Source: Microcoleus vaginatus PCC 9802 (GTDB taxonomy: Bacteria > Cyanobacteriota > Cyanobacteriia > Cyanobacteriales > Microcoleaceae). Taken from it: a stretch of DNA of 64,000 nt. Below the pieces are notes generated by a model. It was given only the letters and a program-made list of their open reading frames with translations. It did no database searches and was not told the DNA's origin. This document shows, in pieces, positions 54,199 to 64,000 of this stretch. Every line of letters begins with the position of its first letter. Within the stretch, counting starts at the first letter, position 1. The stretch is from contig CP031740.1 of NCBI GenBank assembly GCA_022701275.1, positions 879,001-943,000 on the forward strand, written 5' to 3'. The position numbers were made by a program, and so were the translations under genes.

Positions 54199-57126
54199 TT
54201 AAATACGCTGCCGATAATTTAACTCTTGGAAAATCAGATTGTAGCAGGTTCCACGCTGACTGTCAATGGCAATACTCGCCTCTAATTGGTAAGCCAACAT
54301 TCTCACTAATCGCAATCCTAATGTTTCAGTATTTTCCACGTCAAAATCCGCCGGAAATCCGCGACCGTTATCTTGAATAGTTAAATGAAATTGGTGGAAA
54401 TTTATTTCATGGAAATTAATTGCTATTTCACCCTCTAAACTTGAGACAAAGGCATATTTTAAAGAGTTAGAAACCAGTTCGTTAATAATTAAGCCACACG
54501 GAATTGCTGTTTCTATGTTTAAATAAATGGGGTCAACTTTGAGGTTAAATTGGATGGAAGTGTTGCCACAACCAAAAGATTGATACAGATTAGCCACCAA
54601 ATTTTCGACGTAGGGGGACAGGGCGATCTGATCGAGATTTTCGGATTGATAAAGTTGCTCGTGAATCAGAGCCATTGAATGGATGCGGGTCTGGCTTTCT
54701 TCAAATAAAGCTAGCGTCGGTTCGTCTTCAATGTATTGAGCTTGAAGTTGCAGCAGGCTAGAAATTATCTGCATATTATTTTTGACTCGGTGGTGAATTT
54801 CTTTGAGCAATACTTCTTTTTCGCGGAGTGCTGCTTGGATGCGGGCCTCGGTAAATTTGCGATCGCTGATATTTTCGCAAATACCCGCGATGCGGTAAAT
54901 TTGGCCCGATTCGTCGTAAATGGGAAAAGCTCGATCGCACACCCAGCGAATTGTGCCGTCTGGCAGAAAAATCCGATATTCGGTATTGGTAAACTCGCCC
55001 TGCAACACTCGCCCCATTCCCTCTTCCAACAGGAGTTTATCTTCTGGATGCACCCACTCCATCATTTTTAAGGGATCAGCATAGAGTTCTTCGCGACTGC
55101 GCCCCCAGATTTGTTCGTAAGCGGGACTCAGATACAATAAATCGGTGAGATCCGCAGACATTAGCCAGACGGAATCTTGGATATTTTCTGCTAGTTGGCG
55201 GAAGCGTTCTTCACTTTCGCGGATGTTTTTTTCTGCCTGTTTGCGTGCGGTAATATCTACTGCAAGGCCCACGATCCGGTAAACTTTACCAGATTGATTT
55301 TTAATCGGAAAAGCCCGATCACGAATCCAGCAGGTTTTGCCGTCTGGCCTGACAATTCGATATTCTATCTCACCTTCATACTCAATTTTTCTAGTTAAAT
55401 TAGCAATAACCCGCTCGCGATCTTCTGGATGGAGGGAATCTGCAAAAAAGCGCCCGTTAGCATACAAATCAGCGCAGCTTCTGCCCCAAATTTTTTCGTA
55501 ACCCGGACTGATATAAATAATTTCCTGGGGTTGAACGTTTACCATCCAAAACACGCTTTCAATGTTTTCTGCTAGCTGTCGGAACCTTTCTTCGCTTTCT
55601 TTCAGCGCTGCTTCGGTTTTTTTGCGATCGCTAATATCTTCTGTCACTACTACATTATAAATTGCCCCACTCAGCGGTTCTTTGATTAGCGATACTGTAA
55701 TATTTACCCAAACTACATGGCCGTCTTTGTGCAGCAAGCGTTTTTCCATTTTAAAACTGTCAATTTCCCCGGCAAATAATTTCTTGTTTTGTTTTAAATC
55801 TGCATCTATATCTTCTGGGTAAGTAACGTCCATCCAAGTTCGCAACAGCAGTTCGCTCGCAGTATATCCCACTATCTCGCAGAATTTTTGATTGACTCGC
55901 AAATAGCGGCCTGTTTCGTCAGGGTGGGTAATGCCGACTGCCGCTTGTTCAACGGTTGCCCGAAAGCGTTCTTCGCTATCTCTGAGGGTTGCTTCTGCTT
56001 TTTTGCGATCGCTAATATCGCGCTGCACGCCAAAATACCCGAGGATTCTGCCGTGGGAATCGTAAATGCAAATATAGTCGCCTTCCACCCAAACTGGAAC
56101 CCCGTCAAACTTGCGATTCTCATTTTCGATGTGAATTCTGCCAGCCTCAAAAAATTGCCTGATTATCTCTCTGCTACCAGTCAAGTCGTGCGACAAGAAA
56201 GAGTAAAGCGTCCGACCAATAAACTCTTCCCTAGTACCTGCATATTGAGCTATCAAAGCATCATTTGCTTTCGTTACCCGCCCGTTAGCAAATATGTAAT
56301 CCAAGACTTTTTCTTTGTCAACTGTATCGTCCCAGTGCACTGGTTCGTCCAGCATCATAAAGAAAAAACCATCTAAAGATTGAGAGAAAAACAATTCTAG
56401 CTGTTCCTGGCTTTCCCGCAGAGCTTTTTCGGCGCGCCAGCGAGAGAGAATTTCTTTCTGCAATTGATCGTTTGCTGTTTTCAAGTCTTCAGTGCGCTTT
56501 TGATATTTAATTTCTAGCTGATTTTTGATTTCTTCCAGCGCTATTTCTGCCTGTTTTTTTTCGGTAATATCTTGAGTAACGAGCATTCCTGCAAAAATTT
56601 CTTCCCGGTCATTTTCGACGGGAGCAACTGTTATTGAATAAACGCGATTTCCGTATTTATATTCAAAAGTATTCTCTTTTCCCGCCAAAGCGGCACGATA
56701 TTTAGTCTCAAAAAGTTGCCAATCTTCAGGTGGGGATACTTCCCACAAGGTTTTGCCTTCCAACAGTTCTTTAGACAAACCAACTGCTGCCAAACCTTGA
56801 CCGTCAACCAGAGTATAGCGCAAATCGCGATCGAACAACAACACCGAGCCATTTGGATAATGTTTGATGAGAATTCGGTACATTTCCTGGCTTTTTTCCA
56901 GAGATGCGATTAACCGAAGGCGATCGTCCTCGGTGCTATCCAATTCAGTTACGGAACCCGAAAAACCAGCATTCTCGACTGCTTTGAGTTGTGCTTCTAA
57001 TTTCTGGCACAATTCTCTCTGCTGCTGCAAATCCTCTTCAAGTTGCCGAATTTTTGTTTTTTGCTCTGCTACTAATGCTTCGCAGGTTTCGAGAGGTCGA
57101 TCGATCCCTGTAAGATCAATACACAT
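54199..57126 (-). CDS. Multi-PAS histidine kinase (HisKA_2 type)
   Basis: This 975-residue soluble kinase begins with a coiled coil and then about five PAS/PAC units, each ending in an ITEKKQAE- or ISDRKKAE-type linker. The last two are close repeats (FRQLAENIESVFWM; FRQLAENIQDSVWLM). The kinase core is of the HisKA_2 type: EIHHRVKNNMQIISSLLQLQ with the phospho-histidine, then INELVSNSLKYAF and DNGRGFP. PAS units sense light, redox or small ligands, but no chromophore residue was identified. The ORF starts at TTG 57189. I use ATG 57126. The gene heads a two-gene operon. Confidence 0.93.
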   Translation of the reverse strand: MCIDLTGIDRPLETCEALVAEQKTKIRQLEEDLQQQRELCQKLEAQLKAVENAGFSGSVTELDSTEDDRLRLIASLEKSQEMYRILIKHYPNGSVLLFDRDLRYTLVDGQGLAAVGLSKELLEGKTLWEVSPPEDWQLFETKYRAALAGKENTFEYKYGNRVYSITVAPVENDREEIFAGMLVTQDITEKKQAEIALEEIKNQLEIKYQKRTEDLKTANDQLQKEILSRWRAEKALRESQEQLELFFSQSLDGFFFMMLDEPVHWDDTVDKEKVLDYIFANGRVTKANDALIAQYAGTREEFIGRTLYSFLSHDLTGSREIIRQFFEAGRIHIENENRKFDGVPVWVEGDYICIYDSHGRILGYFGVQRDISDRKKAEATLRDSEERFRATVEQAAVGITHPDETGRYLRVNQKFCEIVGYTASELLLRTWMDVTYPEDIDADLKQNKKLFAGEIDSFKMEKRLLHKDGHVVWVNITVSLIKEPLSGAIYNVVVTEDISDRKKTEAALKESEERFRQLAENIESVFWMVNVQPQEIIYISPGYEKIWGRSCADLYANGRFFADSLHPEDRERVIANLTRKIEYEGEIEYRIVRPDGKTCWIRDRAFPIKNQSGKVYRIVGLAVDITARKQAEKNIRESEERFRQLAENIQDSVWLMSADLTDLLYLSPAYEQIWGRSREELYADPLKMMEWVHPEDKLLLEEGMGRVLQGEFTNTEYRIFLPDGTIRWVCDRAFPIYDESGQIYRIAGICENISDRKFTEARIQAALREKEVLLKEIHHRVKNNMQIISSLLQLQAQYIEDEPTLALFEESQTRIHSMALIHEQLYQSENLDQIALSPYVENLVANLYQSFGCGNTSIQFNLKVDPIYLNIETAIPCGLIINELVSNSLKYAFVSSLEGEIAINFHEINFHQFHLTIQDNGRGFPADFDVENTETLGLRLVRMLAYQLEASIAIDSQRGTCYNLIFQELNYRQRI

Positions 57127-57249
57127 AATTGCTCTAGGTTTTGCAGTTGCGGACTTGAGCTGTTTCAACTCAATACTAACAAAGCTCAAGCCTACACTGC
57201 CAACTTAATTAGTCCATCTTTCTAGACTTGGGCCGAAAGCCTCCTTCCT

Positions 57250-58539
57250 TCATTTAGGAACTCCCGCCGTCAAGACTTCATGGCTGTCAAATGTCACCAA
57301 AACATCATCTTCAATTCTCACGCCAATACCGCGCCATTTTTCAGGAACCTCCGGCTGTCCTTCAACCGGTTTAATATAAGGAGAAATATAAATCCCCGGT
57401 TCCACCGTCAGCACTTGTCCGGCCTGCAAAACTTGCGGATTTTCGCCGTACTGATAAACGCCGACATCGTGCACATCCAGTCCCAGCCAATGACCAGTGC
57501 GGTGCATATAAAATGGCTTGTATTTCTCTTCTTTAATTATCTCTTCAATGTCCCCCACCAAAAGTTTTAAATCCATTAAACCTTCCACCAAAACGCACAC
57601 TGCCGTTTCGTGAATTTTGCTGTAAGGATTTCCTGGATATATTTGACTAATTGCCTGCAATTGTGCTTGCAACACTAAGTCATAAATTATCTGTTGTTCG
57701 GCTGTAAATTTGCCGCTAACAGGAAAGGTGCGAGTAATATCGGCGTTGTAGTACCCGCAAGCACAACCGGCATCTATTAGCAATAAATCGTTTTCCTGCA
57801 TTTGCCGGTTGTTTTCGATGTAGTGGAGGACGCAGGAATTGTAACCGGATGCAACAATTGAAGGGTAAGCCGGAGTGCAGCCATTTAAGCCAAAAGTATG
57901 TTCTATTTCAGCTTGAATTTCATATTCGTACCTGCCCGGTTTGGCGAATTCTTGGGCGCGGTTGTGCGCTGCAACTGAAATATTAGCCGCTTTTCGCATT
58001 AATGCTAATTCAGTTTCGCTTTTCACCAGCCGCATCGGGTGTAAAATGATGTTGGAATCTTCGATTGCTGTGGGGCCTGTACCGCGTTTCGGGTAGGTTG
58101 CCATCAAGCGCTGCCAGTGATTGAGGACTGTTTGGTCGAAACTACGATCGCGCCCGAAGTGATAGTATATGCGATCGGCTTTTTCTAAATATTTCGGCAG
58201 TTTTTCCGCAAGTTCCGCAATGGGGAAAGCTTCATCGGCACCGTAAAGTTCTTTAGCCCCTTCTACTCCGGCGCGATAACCATGCCAAGTTTCTTTTTCT
58301 AAGTCTTTTGGCTGCACAAACAAAACAAATTTGTGTTCTTCGTGGTGTGGCGCGAGCACTGCTACCGCCGCAGCTTCGTTGAAACCGGTCAAGTAGAAAA
58401 AATCGCTATCTTGTCTGTATGCGTATTCTACATCGTTGTGCATGACGGCAGCGGGGGCGCTGCGAAATATCGCCGTCCCGCTGCCAATTTTTGCCATTAA
58501 CTGTTCGCGTCTTTGCCGATATTCGGTGGGGTTTGTCAT
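57250..58539 (-). CDS. pepP: Xaa-Pro aminopeptidase (aminopeptidase P)
   Basis: The 429-residue M24 peptidase has an N-terminal control domain (YAYRQDSDFFYLTGFNEAAA) and a pita-bread catalytic domain with metal ligands in LIDAGCACGYYNADITRTFP, MHRTGHWLGLDVHDVG, VLTVEPGIY and GIGVRIEDDVLV. It removes N-terminal residues before proline. Length is normal for the family. It is separated from the kinase operon by 123 bases. Confidence 0.96.
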   Translation of the reverse strand: MTNPTEYRQRREQLMAKIGSGTAIFRSAPAAVMHNDVEYAYRQDSDFFYLTGFNEAAAVAVLAPHHEEHKFVLFVQPKDLEKETWHGYRAGVEGAKELYGADEAFPIAELAEKLPKYLEKADRIYYHFGRDRSFDQTVLNHWQRLMATYPKRGTGPTAIEDSNIILHPMRLVKSETELALMRKAANISVAAHNRAQEFAKPGRYEYEIQAEIEHTFGLNGCTPAYPSIVASGYNSCVLHYIENNRQMQENDLLLIDAGCACGYYNADITRTFPVSGKFTAEQQIIYDLVLQAQLQAISQIYPGNPYSKIHETAVCVLVEGLMDLKLLVGDIEEIIKEEKYKPFYMHRTGHWLGLDVHDVGVYQYGENPQVLQAGQVLTVEPGIYISPYIKPVEGQPEVPEKWRGIGVRIEDDVLVTFDSHEVLTAGVPK

Positions 58540-59224: not shown

Positions 59225-61111
59225 TTAAAGCTGAGGAACGTATTGTTCTTTTTCAGGAACAAAAGTGTATTCAGAGACGATGAGGCGCAACTCTTCGCCG
59301 TCGATGGTTTCTTTTTCGATCAACAAATCGACTAAGCGATCAATCACGGTGCGATTTTCGCGAATAATTCGGCGGGCGTCGTCGTAGCAATGATCGACAA
59401 TCGATCGAACTTGTCCGTCAATCCGAGAGGCTATTTCTTCGGAATATTCCGATCGCGCTGTGTAGTCGCGGCCGAGGAAAATTTCGCTTTGTTGAGCTTC
59501 CAGGGCGATCGGGCCCAAGGTAGACATCCCATAGCGAGTCACCATTTGCCGCGCCATGCCGCTGACTTGCTGCAAGTCGTTGCCGGCACCGGTGGTTACT
59601 TCGGCATCGCCGAAAACTACTTCTTCGGCTGCGCGGCCACCTAAAGCACCGCTAATCCGGGCTAAAATTTGCGATCGAGAAATCAAACCTTGGTCTTCGC
59701 TGGGCATGAACCAAGTCAAGCCGCGGGCCTGTCCGCGAGGAACTAAGGTAACTTTTTGAACTGGATCGTGGGCTTGAATGATTGTACCGACGATCGCGTG
59801 GCCGATTTCGTGGTAAGCAATCAAGCGCTTGCTCTTGCTGTCCACCAAAGGAGTGCCTTCCATACCTGCTACCACGCGATCGACTGCATCGTCAACTTCG
59901 AGCATCGTAATCGCTTCTTTGCGGCGGCGGGCGGTTAAAATAGCCGCTTCGTTGAGCAAGTTAGCCAAATCAGCGCCGGTAAAACCAGGAGTGCGGCGGG
60001 CGATGGCGTCCAAAGAAATCTCCGCAGACAGCTTCTTGTTGCGCGCGTGAACTTCCAAAATTTCCAAGCGGCCTTTGATATCCGGCGTATCTACGCTAAC
60101 TTGGCGGTCAAAACGTCCTGGACGCAGCAGCGCTGAATCGAGCACGTCGGGGCGGTTGGTGGCAGCAATGATGATAATGCCAGTATTGCCCTCAAAACCG
60201 TCCATTTCGGTCAGCAACTGGTTCAGGGTTTGTTCCCGTTCGTCGTTACCGCCGCCGATACCGGCGCCGCGCTGGCGACCGACTGCATCGATTTCATCGA
60301 TGAAGATGATGCAAGGAGCATTTTCTTTAGCTTTCTTGAACAAGTCCCGAACGCGGGAAGCGCCGACACCGACGAACATTTCGACAAATTCCGAACCGGA
60401 GATGCTGAAGAAAGGCACGCCGGCTTCGCCTGCGATCGCTTTTGCCAGCAAGGTTTTACCGGTTCCGGGAGGGCCAACTAGCAGCACGCCTTTGGGAATC
60501 TTCGCCCCGACTGCGGTGAAGCGTTCGGGTTTTTTGAGGAATGTCACTACTTCTTGTAGTTCTTCTTTGGCTTCCTCAACGCCTGCTACGTCGTCGAACA
60601 GTACGCCTGTTTTAGCTTCCATTTGAAAGCGAGCTTTGGATTTGCCAAAATTCATGGCTTGGCCCGGGCCGCCGGGAACGTTGCCACCGCGGCGGAAGAG
60701 GAAAAACAGGCCTCCTACTAACAAGAGGGGAAATACTAGATTGCCTAAAAGTCCCCAGACAGCACCGTCATTGCGTAGTGGGTGAGTGTCGAAGCTGATT
60801 TTGGAGTCTCTGAGCCTAGAAACCAGTTCCGGGGCATTTGAGGGCAAGTCAACCCGCCACCGCTGCTCGTGATTGTCCAGTTCGGGATCGACTGCTAGGA
60901 CAATAGCCGTCCGACCTCCGTCGTAAAGGTCAACGCTGGTCACTCGACCGGCGTTTAAGTAATCTAAGAATCGACCGTAGCTCAGGCGGGTGCTGGCGGT
61001 GTTCTTGCTCATTTCTGCGGGGGATGGGGCAAAGGCCCCCTGCCACAAGAAAAAGCCGATGACTAAGGCGGGTAAAGTCCAAAGTAGTATAGTTCGCCAA
61101 GAAATTTTCAT
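59225..61111 (-). CDS. ftsH: ATP-dependent zinc metalloprotease FtsH
   Basis: The 628-residue membrane protease has two N-terminal membrane segments ([16 protein letters not shown] and [22 protein letters not shown]) around a periplasmic/lumenal domain. The AAA domain shows Walker A GPPGTGKT, Walker [12 protein letters not shown], and [20 protein letters not shown]. The zinc site reads HEIGH, with Ile in place of the usual Ala, and a downstream Asp in the GAGNDLQQ region. Cyanobacterial FtsH complexes degrade damaged D1 and other membrane proteins. It is divergent from the actin-like gene at 61434. Confidence 0.98.
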
Positions 61112-61433
61112 AAATGCGGATGCCTTGAATTGGGGACAGATCGGGTAAGATCGCGATGTCGGAGAAGTGCGACAAATGTTTACACTCAGAATCTTAACTA
61201 AATTTAACTTAACAATGCACTCTCAGGCAACAGAGCTTCGATCACGATCGCTCCAGAAAAAGTTAGGTTAGTTAGGGTAAGGGCGATCGTCCCGAATATA
61301 ATGTTTGGTGCTGATTTCGATACCGATCTAGGTAGAGTTAGAAGAATCGCCGCAAAACCCACTGTCTTTAAGCGTGGCAGTGTCAAGGGATAAGGCATGA
61401 TAATGGTGAGGCTCAGTGAGGTAACACATTTCA
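61112..61433. other. Divergent promoter region of ftsH and the actin-like gene
   Basis: A 322-base interval without a supported gene. It contains GGTTAGGTTAGTTAGGGTAA direct repeats near 61264-61283 and HIP1-like CGATCG sites. A minus-strand frame at 61204-61440 is hydrophobic but has no ribosome site and overlaps the divergent start. Confidence 0.5.
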
Positions 61434-62519
61434 ATGACAACTAGACAGCTTGTTCCTAATTCGGCTATGCTGACCCAGCAGACTAAAGTCGCTTCTAACA
61501 ACAAATCGATTATTAGTGCTGATTTGGGTCGGACGGCAACTAAAGCTTGCGTGAGTCGCAACCCGAGTAGCGTTGTTTTCATCCCTGCCAACGTGGCTAC
61601 TATGCCCGTGGAAAAGGTGCGGGGTGGCAGCTTTGAGTCGAAAGCAACAGACCCTCTGTTGGATATGTGGCTGGAGTACCAGGGCAAGGGGTACGCGATC
61701 GGTCAACTGGCGGCAGATTTTGGCGCTAATCTCGGTGGCGCCGACCAGTCGAAAGTAGTAGATGCTTTGGTTAAGGTCTTTTCCTGTGCTGGATATTTCC
61801 AGATGAAGGGCGAAGTAGCAGTTGTGCTGGGTTTGCCGTTTTATTCGCAGGATCAGTTTGAGAAGGAAAAGGAAGAGATTATCAGCCAACTGCGCTCTCC
61901 CCACGTTGTGGTGTACCGGGGCGAGCGTGTGGATATTAACATCAGTCACGTTTGGGTGATGCCGGAAGGGTTCGGCAGCCTAATTTGGTGTGAGGCTCAA
62001 GATAACAAGGAGTTTACGCCGGAGTTGCCCGAACTGTCGGTGGCTGTTGTTGATATCGGACACCAAACTACCGATTTGTTAATGGTCGATCGTTTCCGGT
62101 TCGCCCGGGCGGCTTCTAAGAGCGATTCCTTCGCAATGAACAAGTTCTACGAACAAGTTGCCTCAAAGATTCCGGGAGCAGACCCTCAATCGCTGTCTTT
62201 ACTGGAAGCGGTGAATAAACCCGAGGGCCAGCGTTTTTACCGTCCCAGAGGAGCGACTAAGCCGACTAATTTAGATCCGATTATTAAGGATTTGCGGGAG
62301 GCTTTCGCTAACGAACTGTCCGAACGTTTGGTGCAGTGGCTGCCGGAACGTGTGACGGATGTGGTTCTGACTGGCGGGGGCGGCGAGTTTTTCTGGGAGG
62401 TTTTGCAACCTTTGCTTAAAGACGCCAATCTTAAGGCTCACTTGGCTCAGCCTTCCCGGAAAGCTAATGCTTTGGGACAGTTTATTTATGCTGAGGCTCA
62501 GCTAGCCACGATAAAGTAA
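61434..62519 (+). CDS. ParM/StbA-like actin-family protein
   Basis: The 361-residue protein has the actin-fold phosphate loops: ISADLGRTATKACVS near residues 27-41 (phosphate 1), VAVVDIGHQTTDLLM near 203-217 (phosphate 2) and VVLTGGGGEFFWEVL near 304-318 (adenosine motif). The pattern matches bacterial ParM/Alp plasmid-segregation actins, not MreB or FtsA. It forms filaments in relatives that push DNA apart. It is followed, 20 bases after the stop, by a small coiled-coil protein that could be the DNA-binding adaptor. The setting beside ftsH suggests a chromosomal location. ATG 61434 has GAGG upstream, and ATG 61467 is an alternative. Confidence 0.88.
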   Translation: MTTRQLVPNSAMLTQQTKVASNNKSIISADLGRTATKACVSRNPSSVVFIPANVATMPVEKVRGGSFESKATDPLLDMWLEYQGKGYAIGQLAADFGANLGGADQSKVVDALVKVFSCAGYFQMKGEVAVVLGLPFYSQDQFEKEKEEIISQLRSPHVVVYRGERVDINISHVWVMPEGFGSLIWCEAQDNKEFTPELPELSVAVVDIGHQTTDLLMVDRFRFARAASKSDSFAMNKFYEQVASKIPGADPQSLSLLEAVNKPEGQRFYRPRGATKPTNLDPIIKDLREAFANELSERLVQWLPERVTDVVLTGGGGEFFWEVLQPLLKDANLKAHLAQPSRKANALGQFIYAEAQLATIK

Positions 62520-62539
62520 CGCATTAAGGCTTGAACCCT

Positions 62540-63058
62540 ATGGCACTGTGGGCAAAAAATAAGGCGAATTTCTCGGTGGCGTTTACGGAAGATGCTGCGG
62601 ATCAAACTTTGCTGGCCGCTATTGAAAAAGAGTTGGCTTTCACGAAGTATCAGACTTTCAGCAATCTCTGCAAGCAGGCTTTGTGGCAGTTTTTGTCTGT
62701 ATCTGAGTCTGCTAGCTCTACACAGAGCTTTCAGCGGTTGGAACAGCGTATTGCTGAACTTGCGGTCAAATTTGCTGAGTTTGAGCACAATGTTTCGGCA
62801 GAGGAATTAAGCCGTTTGGAGGGACTGGAACATCACCTGAGTCAACTCAGCGCGCAGTTGGATCAGTTGCAGGGGAGTGTTAACAGTAAGTTTGCTCAAG
62901 TTTCTTTTGCCCAAGTTTCAAAAGTAGTAGAGCCTGGCCCGATTGAGTCTGAATCTGTGGCGGATGATAATGTGGTATCTGATGCTGAAGTTGCTCCTCC
63001 TCGGAATTCCGATCCTTTGCTGGAGCGTTTAAGTTCTTTGTTACCCCAAGATTTCTAA
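62540..63058 (+). CDS. ParR-like partner protein of the actin gene
   Basis: The 172-residue protein has an N-terminal strand-helix-helix like region (NFSVAFTEDAADQTLL, YQTFSNLCKQALWQFLSVS) that could be a ribbon-helix-helix DNA-binding unit. A coiled coil (QRLEQRIAELAVKFAEFEH, then LSRLEGLEHHLSQLSAQLD) and a disordered acidic tail ending LLERLSSLLPQDF follow. Small RHH-plus-coil proteins after ParM are typical ParR adaptors, and a short C-terminal helix often contacts the filament. The start is ATG 62540, since the frame from 62531 begins at TTG. The assignment rests on context and pattern. Confidence 0.7.
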   Translation: MALWAKNKANFSVAFTEDAADQTLLAAIEKELAFTKYQTFSNLCKQALWQFLSVSESASSTQSFQRLEQRIAELAVKFAEFEHNVSAEELSRLEGLEHHLSQLSAQLDQLQGSVNSKFAQVSFAQVSKVVEPGPIESESVADDNVVSDAEVAPPRNSDPLLERLSSLLPQDF

Positions 63059-63138
63059 AATGAGGTAGACCCAGGCTTAAAAGCCTTGAGATGTAATGTT
63101 AGTGGCCCGCTGTTGGCAGCCGGTACTGAATACAGAAA

Positions 63139-63179
63139 CAAAGCGATCGCTCTTTTGAAAAAAAAGGGCGATCGCTTTG
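63139..63179 (+). terminator. HIP1-containing terminator after the actin operon
   Basis: CAAAGCGATCGC (63139-63150) and GCGATCGCTTTG (63168-63179) form a 12-base stem around a 17-base A-rich loop, followed by TTATTG. The HIP1 octamer makes up each arm. Confidence 0.7.
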
Positions 63180-63232
63180 TTATTGCCGATTTTAGATTTT
63201 AGATTTACTCATTTTTGTCTATACCATTCCCA

Positions 63233-64000
63233 TTATTCGATTAATCCTAATTTTTGTAATCGCGAACGAATGGCACTAGGCTGTCGCTGAAATCTCTGAG
63301 CTAATTCGTCAATTTGTTGACCGCTAGCATATTCCTTCTTCAAATTTTCGTCTTCATCCTGACTCCACTTGACATAAGCTCTGGGATATTTCTGGCGAAT
63401 TTTCTCATTCTGGGTTTTAGGTCGATAACCATTCTTTTGATCGGCATTCAAACCAGAACCAAACTGTGGGTTAATTTCCCCACCGCGACTAGCTAGCGCC
63501 TCTTCCACGCGGTTGGGAATGACAGCAATTTCTTCTGAGAGCTCAGCCAAAGCATTCTCTACTTTTTGCTGAAGTTCTGTTAGCTGCCGCTGCTGCAAAC
63601 TGCCCCACTGCGGCAGTTCGTTGATAAACTGCTGCAAGTCCAGAATTATTGTTGTCAAAGTTTCGACTTGTTGCAACTCCGGTCGCTGTTTGAATTGGCG
63701 GCTGGTGAGTTCGATCTCGCTTTGAATCATTTTAATAGTTTTTTCTAAAATTATTAGTCGCTGGCGCAGGTTCTCAATTGCTGAAATTAGAGAGTGTACA
63801 TTTTCTCCAGGCCCAACATTGAGATTTTCGCGAGATGTTTGAGCAAGAGCTTCGTCTAAAGCATTTACAGCAAGTTGCAATTGCTCGATTGCGCGATCGG
63901 TAGTAGCTGCTTGTTGATTGACGCGATCGAACGTGGCCGCCGTACTTGCTTTAACTTGCCCGTGCAGCTTCTGCCGGTTCACAAAATTCAACACCAACGA
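63233..64000 (-). CDS. Coiled-coil protein with C-terminal HTH/Myb-like tail (partial)
   Basis: The frame is open to the window edge, so the N-terminus is missing. The visible 255 residues are a long coiled coil (RVNQQAATTDRAIEQLQLAV, then LRQRLIILEKTIKMIQSEIE) and a C-terminal unit YVKWSQDEDENLKKEY followed by IDELAQRFQRQPSAIRSRLQ. That tail resembles the SANT/Myb-like helix-turn-helix that often ends bacterial proteins of the helicase or nuclease kind. The TTG at 63997 is probably not the start. The function cannot be given from this part. Confidence 0.65.
   Translation of the reverse strand, partial: SLVLNFVNRQKLHGQVKASTAATFDRVNQQAATTDRAIEQLQLAVNALDEALAQTSRENLNVGPGENVHSLISAIENLRQRLIILEKTIKMIQSEIELTSRQFKQRPELQQVETLTTIILDLQQFINELPQWGSLQQRQLTELQQKVENALAELSEEIAVIPNRVEEALASRGGEINPQFGSGLNADQKNGYRPKTQNEKIRQKYPRAYVKWSQDEDENLKKEYASGQQIDELAQRFQRQPSAIRSRLQKLGLIE

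Follow-up and report, generated by a model that had tools for sequence, protein, structure and literature searches.

We analysed a window of 64,000 nucleotides from the genome of Microcoleus vaginatus PCC 9802 (contig CP031740.1, positions 879,001 to 943,000) and focus here on two neighbouring genes, fcmB and fcmC. On the plus strand, fcmB (61434-62519) encodes a ParM-derived actin of 361 residues. The co-directional fcmC ends at 63058 and offers two possible start codons, a TTG at 62531 and an ATG at 62540. An equivalent ATG is present in close relatives, and FcmC is probably a protein of 172 residues (62540-63058) in the place of ParR; the spacer between the fcmB stop codon and this ATG measures 20 bases. 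A sequence-only reading of the same DNA had described a ParM-like actin with a ParR-like adaptor in a chromosomal setting, which a plasmid origin of the contig would have undone. The replicon was assembled as one contig of 6,698,371 bases, so the locus is not plasmid-borne, and both proteins pass their family models; the claim of a chromosomal actin with a small partner thus holds.

FcmB matches the NCBIfam model NF052678 with 656 bits, 2.2 times the cut-off of 300, its residues 14-357 aligning with positions 30-373 of the 373 in the profile. Pfam recovers ALP_N (E 1e-16) and MreB-like_C (E 1.5e-7). In a phmmer search of the PDB, residues 21-359 match CorM (9rmi) at E 2.6e-153, and the next match is a chain named Ta0583 at E 0.0037. 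CorM appears to be another name for FcmB. The columns of the DLGRT, D-GHQT and TGGG motifs, which we take to form the actin nucleotide site, are invariant across 14 aligned FcmB orthologues including that of Microcoleus, and the protein is 63% identical to a Nostocales FcmB over a 356-column alignment. The closest named relative, among the best 80 of 294, is the chromosome of Microcoleus vaginatus HSN003, whose FcmB is 99% identical. The Microcoleus genome holds a single FcmB match and also encodes MreB (480 bits). PHROG 691, annotated 'partition protein', matches FcmB at E 9e-39, and weaker homologues occur in 101 plasmid and 5 phage records. In a phylogeny of 62 sequences (63 were supplied and one was dropped as too short), the Microcoleaceae and Nostocales FcmB groups fall broadly as under vertical descent, with several open forks.

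The find itself is already known: the pair is the orthologue of a morphogenetic actin system described in 2025. According to the available text of PMC12645912, FcmB of Nostoc punctiforme forms membrane-bound circumferential filaments and is required for rod shape, FcmC is required to place these filaments at the membrane, and the two proteins contact each other in a two-hybrid test. Deletion of fcmB or fcmC yields wide, round cells, in which DAPI staining shows nucleoids distributed without obvious change. In that paper FcmB is traced back to plasmid partitioning actins; it is recorded in filamentous cyanobacteria but not in unicellular ones, and filamentous species are stated typically to possess both FcmB and MreB. 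The Microcoleus pair shares with the Nostoc pair (Npun_R4472 and Npun_R4471) its protein families, gene order, chromosomal seat and the presence of MreB alongside. We thus regard it as very probable that the Microcoleus genes are fcmB and fcmC, a former ParM-ParR (ParMR) actin system that now shapes the cell.

FcmC, whose gene directly follows fcmB, reaches 171 bits against NF052682, 1.9 times the cut-off of 90. Its aromatic and basic N-terminal tail, MALWAKNKANF (62540-62572), is a candidate membrane contact, as suggested by how often its tryptophan recurs. Next come a strand-helix-helix-like segment (62573-62701), putatively the former DNA-binding part, which is recognised by conserved residues and predicted helices, and a coiled coil (62717-62899) within a continuous predicted helix of residues 40-120. 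The C-terminal peptide SDPLLERLSSLLPQDF (63008-63055; all four segments lie on the plus strand) is a motif retained in 135 of the 137 FcmC proteins and may, by comparison with ParR, be the actin-binding end. Conserved positions include V13, F15 and the F40-S-x-L-C-K region. A single-chain AlphaFold model (mean predicted local distance difference test score, pLDDT, 68.9; predicted template modelling score 0.29) contains helices 19-34, 40-120 and 159-165, with block-mean pLDDT values of 87-96 over residues 71-120. The two N-terminal helices, the second of which merges into the long coil, are accompanied by no predicted strand, but a single-chain model could not reveal a strand that pairs only in the dimer. 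By eye, the protein starts as strand-helix-helix.

We compared FcmC to ParR and to known folds. Cyanobacterial plasmid-type ParMR systems (loci L060-L069) belong to the same actin family, with a ParR-like open reading frame after the actin in nine of them, but their ParM proteins are 20-25% identical to FcmB. A profile comparison of 44 FcmC with nine of these ParR-position proteins returned a probability of 0.3%, that is, no profile match. Five of the ParR-position proteins (L060-L064) open with a basic strand, FRLRxR, unlike the FcmC strand, which is mostly free of lysine, arginine and histidine. No ribbon-helix-helix family appears among the 17 Pfam families listed for FcmC or among the best 25 of 203 for the 44-protein set. 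A fold search of the PDB gave 15 matches at E up to 10, none at 0.001, and the best 60 of 84 matches in a PDB sequence profile search (E up to 10) resemble coiled coils, as judged by name and range, mostly over residues 58-120. A partner in the place of ParR, as in the sequence-only reading, is borne out by gene position; a ribbon-helix-helix fold, whose lack would have counted against that reading, found no match in these searches. Gene position and appearance, rather than a demonstrated match, suggest that FcmC and ParR may share an origin. A plasmid search with Microcoleus FcmC produced no match.

All 137 FcmC proteins were read for a census of N-termini, which yielded 107 distinct sequences. 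Basic residues are missing from the core strand in 97 of them, as in Microcoleus, where it reads SVAF, and are present in ten. The tail tryptophan is found in 85 and absent from 22. A basic strand accompanies the tryptophan in 2 of 85 cases versus 8 of 22 without it, and the two sequences that have both are L122, with the tryptophan as residue 10, and L128, with it as residue 9; in neither does it belong to the usual M-x-x-W start. As the sequences are related, this association may represent one event. In one genome (L015; G068:C1:5664618-5665083), fcmC is split over two frames, either by a sequence error or because the gene has decayed.

We next consider conservation. FcmB exceeds its cut-off in 61 of 386 genomes sampled across the phylum (71 at E <= 0.001) and FcmC in 57; in a sample of the order, FcmB does so in 164 of 388. 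Within the genus, 27 of 29 genomes contain an FcmB match, as do 30 of 32 from the other genera of the family; the four misses comprise three genomes that are 73-92% complete and one at 99%. The gene order, which the sequence-only reading had wanted compared across cyanobacteria, is well kept: FcmC lies downstream in 137 of 142 loci with an FcmB at 50% identity or above, a set in which several genomes occur twice, and the linkage of the two proteins is thus found elsewhere. A divergent ftsH, which in Microcoleus occupies 59225-61111 on the minus strand (TIGR01241, 795 bits, cut-off 600), adjoins fcmB in 54 of 80 named loci, at 292-2037 bases from the start of the FcmB match; it is not there in 24, and the flank is too short in 2. 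Fourteen of the 24 carry Nostocales genus names, and among the rest are Symploca, Kastovskya, two Leptolyngbya and a Gloeomargaritaceae contig. Other open reading frames recur near the pair in these loci (for example in 13-16 of the 24), so that fcmBC lies in a shared chromosomal setting there too.

The Microcoleus locus thus shares its divergent ftsH with other Microcoleaceae and several Leptolyngbya-like lineages, in contrast to the 14 Nostocales-named loci, all with enough flank and with an FcmB of their own group. A metagenome-assembled genome named Richelia (L099) does have ftsH; given an FcmB with 92% identity to the Microcoleus protein, however, its name is doubtful. The Microcoleus FcmB also has a shorter N-terminus than its Nostoc punctiforme counterpart, and the Microcoleus FcmC is about 31-41% identical to Nostocales-type ones.

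The ftsH-fcmB intergenic region (61112-61433) contains a TATAAT hexamer at 61297-61302 that is shared unchanged by at least 90% of the rows in an alignment of 24 Microcoleus-type sequences and represents a candidate -10 element of an fcmBC promoter; a consensus promoter scan, which needs a -35 element as well, did not report it. The sequence-only reading had advised looking for centromere-like sites here; the search of 61112-61433 recovered only weak two-copy repeats and no repeated word above 60 shuffles, that is, no iteron array. Likewise, none of 13 other chromosomal fcmB loci has repeats above the highest of 15 shuffles. As a positive control, iterons were detected in four of nine ParM-type loci of cyanobacteria. 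An RNA family search of 61000-63300 yielded nothing at the gathering score. Downstream of fcmC, a hairpin (63137-63181) is formed by two 20-nucleotide arms (63137-63156 and 63162-63181) that are 95% complementary and contain one HIP1 octamer each; the folding energy of 63126-63200 is -34.0 kcal/mol. The pair had been credited with a terminator of its own. The strong hairpin is there, but it lies between the convergent fcmC and a gene at 63233-64000 and may serve both, it lacks a long T-run, and it is absent from the output of a consensus terminator scan. The idea that the HIP1-rich hairpin signals long residence was dropped: HIP1 occurs 33 times in the whole window against 0.68 expected from base composition, and because it is so common it says little on residence time.

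We also examined whether FcmC proteins with a basic strand still serve a centromere. Of 19 loci selected for this, 17 were present in the database used and were tested against ten shuffles each. Upstream of fcmB, three exceed the highest shuffle: the L123 signal consists of HIP1 copies, that of L111 is weak, with three scattered copies, and L112 (Elainella sp. Prado103) has a six-unit array between ftsH and fcmB. Its units start at intervals of 11-17 bases and lie some 345-420 bases before the fcmB match, which is at 1612; the array is not seen in the relative L120. In the 1000 bases after fcmB, which include fcmC, seven of the 17 exceed their shuffles (L111, L112, L118, L119, L122, L123 and L132), compared with none of six ParM-type controls. 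The HIP1 core is contained in four of the seven repeat words, and we take the downstream repeats, without proof, as HIP1 or coding repeats. Only L112 among the ten basic-strand loci has an upstream array, the other nine being without one, and a centromere function of basic-strand FcmC was not retained.

These findings can be arranged into a mechanism. An ancestral plasmid- or phage-type ParMR cassette would have moved to the chromosome, lost its centromere and been re-used for cell shape. FcmB would polymerise with ATP at its conserved site, and FcmC would collect on the filaments through its C-terminal peptide and coiled coil and tether them to the cytoplasmic membrane, with the aromatic-basic tail probably contributing to this. 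The circumferential filaments may then favour lengthwise wall growth, or constrict the cell, producing a rod shape beside MreB. We infer the roles of the tail and the C-terminal peptide, and by orthology the filaments, the dependence on FcmC and the rod-shape role would extend to Microcoleus. The checks described above fit a loss of DNA segregation.

Several points weigh against this interpretation. The experiments come from N. punctiforme, and the role in Microcoleus would follow by orthology. The comparison with plasmid ParM groups places FcmB and 11 ParM-type rows on opposite sides of a branch, a point in favour, but its support of 82/81 is moderate, the outgroup is joined by long branches and bootstrapping had not converged. 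The iteron test missed five of the nine ParM-type loci, which makes the absence of iterons weak evidence, and its shuffles moved two-base blocks, so that not all dinucleotides were preserved. Profile, Pfam and fold searches gave no ribbon-helix-helix match for FcmC, and the tryptophan missing from 22 of 107 tails indicates that it is not the sole membrane contact.

It is conceivable that FcmBC still segregates DNA and distributes the chromosome copies of a polyploid filament, with FcmC binding sites and FcmB pushing, much as the sequence-only reading had supposed. The ParM ancestry of FcmB is in line with this, and so are the basic strands of ten FcmC, one of them beside the L112 array. Chromosome-encoded ParMs are described for Desulfitobacterium, where they form filaments and are conserved in the genus, and for Clostridium (PMC12270681); these belong to other phyla, and the available text of that paper does not contain FcmB, CorM or Nostoc. 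At the Microcoleus locus, however, there are no centromere-like repeats and the SVAF strand is free of basic residues, and the Nostoc orthologue determines cell shape, with nucleoids not obviously changed in the mutants (PMC12645912, available text). We thus consider a role in chromosome positioning very improbable.

The sequence-only reading had also allowed for other cargo, in open-ended terms. Slightly less probable still is that FcmBC positions some other cargo bound to the membrane, for instance the machinery of motility or of the septum, and affects shape secondarily; the available text of PMC12645912 does report that after fcmC deletion colonies spread differently and filaments differ in straightness. 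A plasmid or phage remnant that integrated recently and has no role in the host could account for the plasmid and phage homologues and for the PHROG 691 match, but hardly for the near-complete presence of FcmB in the genus and in the other genera of the family, for the ftsH that adjoins fcmB in 54 of 80 named loci or for two intact frames. This conservation suggests that both genes are under purifying selection throughout the family, and we give the remnant explanation next to no weight against a shape-determining FcmBC.

The wider neighbourhood agrees with the claim that the pair lies near ftsH and pepP. The PepP-like gene (57250-58539, minus strand) encodes Pfam AMP_N and Peptidase_M24 domains over their cut-offs, and its product scores 424.5 bits against the NCBIfam Xaa-Pro aminopeptidase model, below the cut-off of 465. 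Beyond it, 54199-57189 (minus strand) encodes a multi-PAS sensor kinase of 996 residues with PAS, HisKA_2 and HATPase_c over their Pfam cut-offs, whose internal repeats fragment the alignment to relatives. The convergent neighbour of fcmC (63233-64000, minus strand) appears to combine a coiled coil with a C-terminal part of Myb-like or helix-turn-helix type (Pfam Myb, E 0.15; PHROG 323, E 8.9e-7), and a gene of this type adjoins fcmC only in Microcoleus-type loci.

Among the relatives, FcmB exceeds its cut-off in eight genomes of one family (f23: G239, G085, G687, G695, G704, G712, G721 and G729). Contig C29 of G704 is base-for-base identical to a contig of Gloeomargaritaceae cyanobacterium C42_A2020_066 (L132), and by this identity and the shared family label the family would be the Gloeomargaritaceae. 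Since G239 consists of one contig, its fcmBC did not arise from faulty binning. In all five of the Gloeomargaritaceae loci examined (L047, L048, L132, L181 and L182), FcmC comes after FcmB, and the three rows from the family cluster in the tree (93/67). Gloeomargarita is a unicellular lineage commonly placed as sister to plastids. The pair in these organisms would mean that the system is not tied to filaments. It contrasts with the absence from unicellular strains published in PMC12645912, whose main text, as far as available, does not name Gloeomargarita. No publication naming Gloeomargarita together with actin-like or ParM proteins was found among the matches listed.

The five of 142 loci without FcmC are exactly those in which FcmB has an extra N-terminal part. 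These fusions lie in L051 (7332-8861, minus strand) and L052 (6581-8161, plus strand), both of a Nostocales-type family (f6), and on the plus strand in L073 (4500-6026), L074 (4149-6050) and L075 (4530-6059). Three are plasmid-borne, on pNPM2, pUHCC0315c and plasmid A of Trichormus variabilis ATCC 29413; in these three, the annotated start lies within the reading frame, which is open further upstream, and the module is thereby hidden. A fourth plasmid record, NZ_CP047243, is among the matches listed, and L174 contains a sixth, shorter case. The module opens with a glycine-rich hydrophobic stretch, possibly a membrane anchor, with weak YtxH-like matches below cut-off, and continues as a coiled coil. 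Of 388 genomes sampled from the order, 24 encode the module, which is also joined to a dynamin-like Dynamin_N GTPase in L168 (4815-7532, plus strand) and L171 (4284-7103, minus strand; two copies side by side) and to a domain matching FGE-sulfatase in L175 (3012-4415, minus strand) and L177 (4665-5924, plus strand). In L052 a shorter copy of the module lies just upstream of the FcmB fusion. As the fusions nest within Nostocales FcmB in the tree, they are later derivatives and not a plasmid ancestor. Their phosphate-2 motif varies (DIGYQT, DIGHQS, DIGHQN, DIGHQT, DIGYES), which leaves their activity uncertain.

Taken together, these observations allow a tentative picture, which we hold at slightly under an even chance, in which the FcmBC family retains living steps from DNA segregation to a membrane cytoskeleton, as well as later ways round it. 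Oculatellaceae, Leptolyngbya-like and Gloeomargaritaceae FcmC without the tail tryptophan, some with a basic strand, would represent the earlier condition; nearly all Nostocales and Microcoleaceae examined combine the tail with a neutral strand; and some Nostocales paralogues would have dropped FcmC, with FcmB fused to the module and on plasmids again. The partner in the CorM system, known as CorR, would be the counterpart of FcmC. The conversion of a segregation actin into a shape-determining cytoskeleton clearly exemplifies how molecules are re-used, and the Microcoleus locus adds one more orthologue to it. The value beyond this lies in the relatives. The Gloeomargaritaceae pair may throw light on the time and cause of the system's acquisition, and the fusions that do without FcmC offer a natural way to test the notion that FcmC is chiefly a membrane tether.
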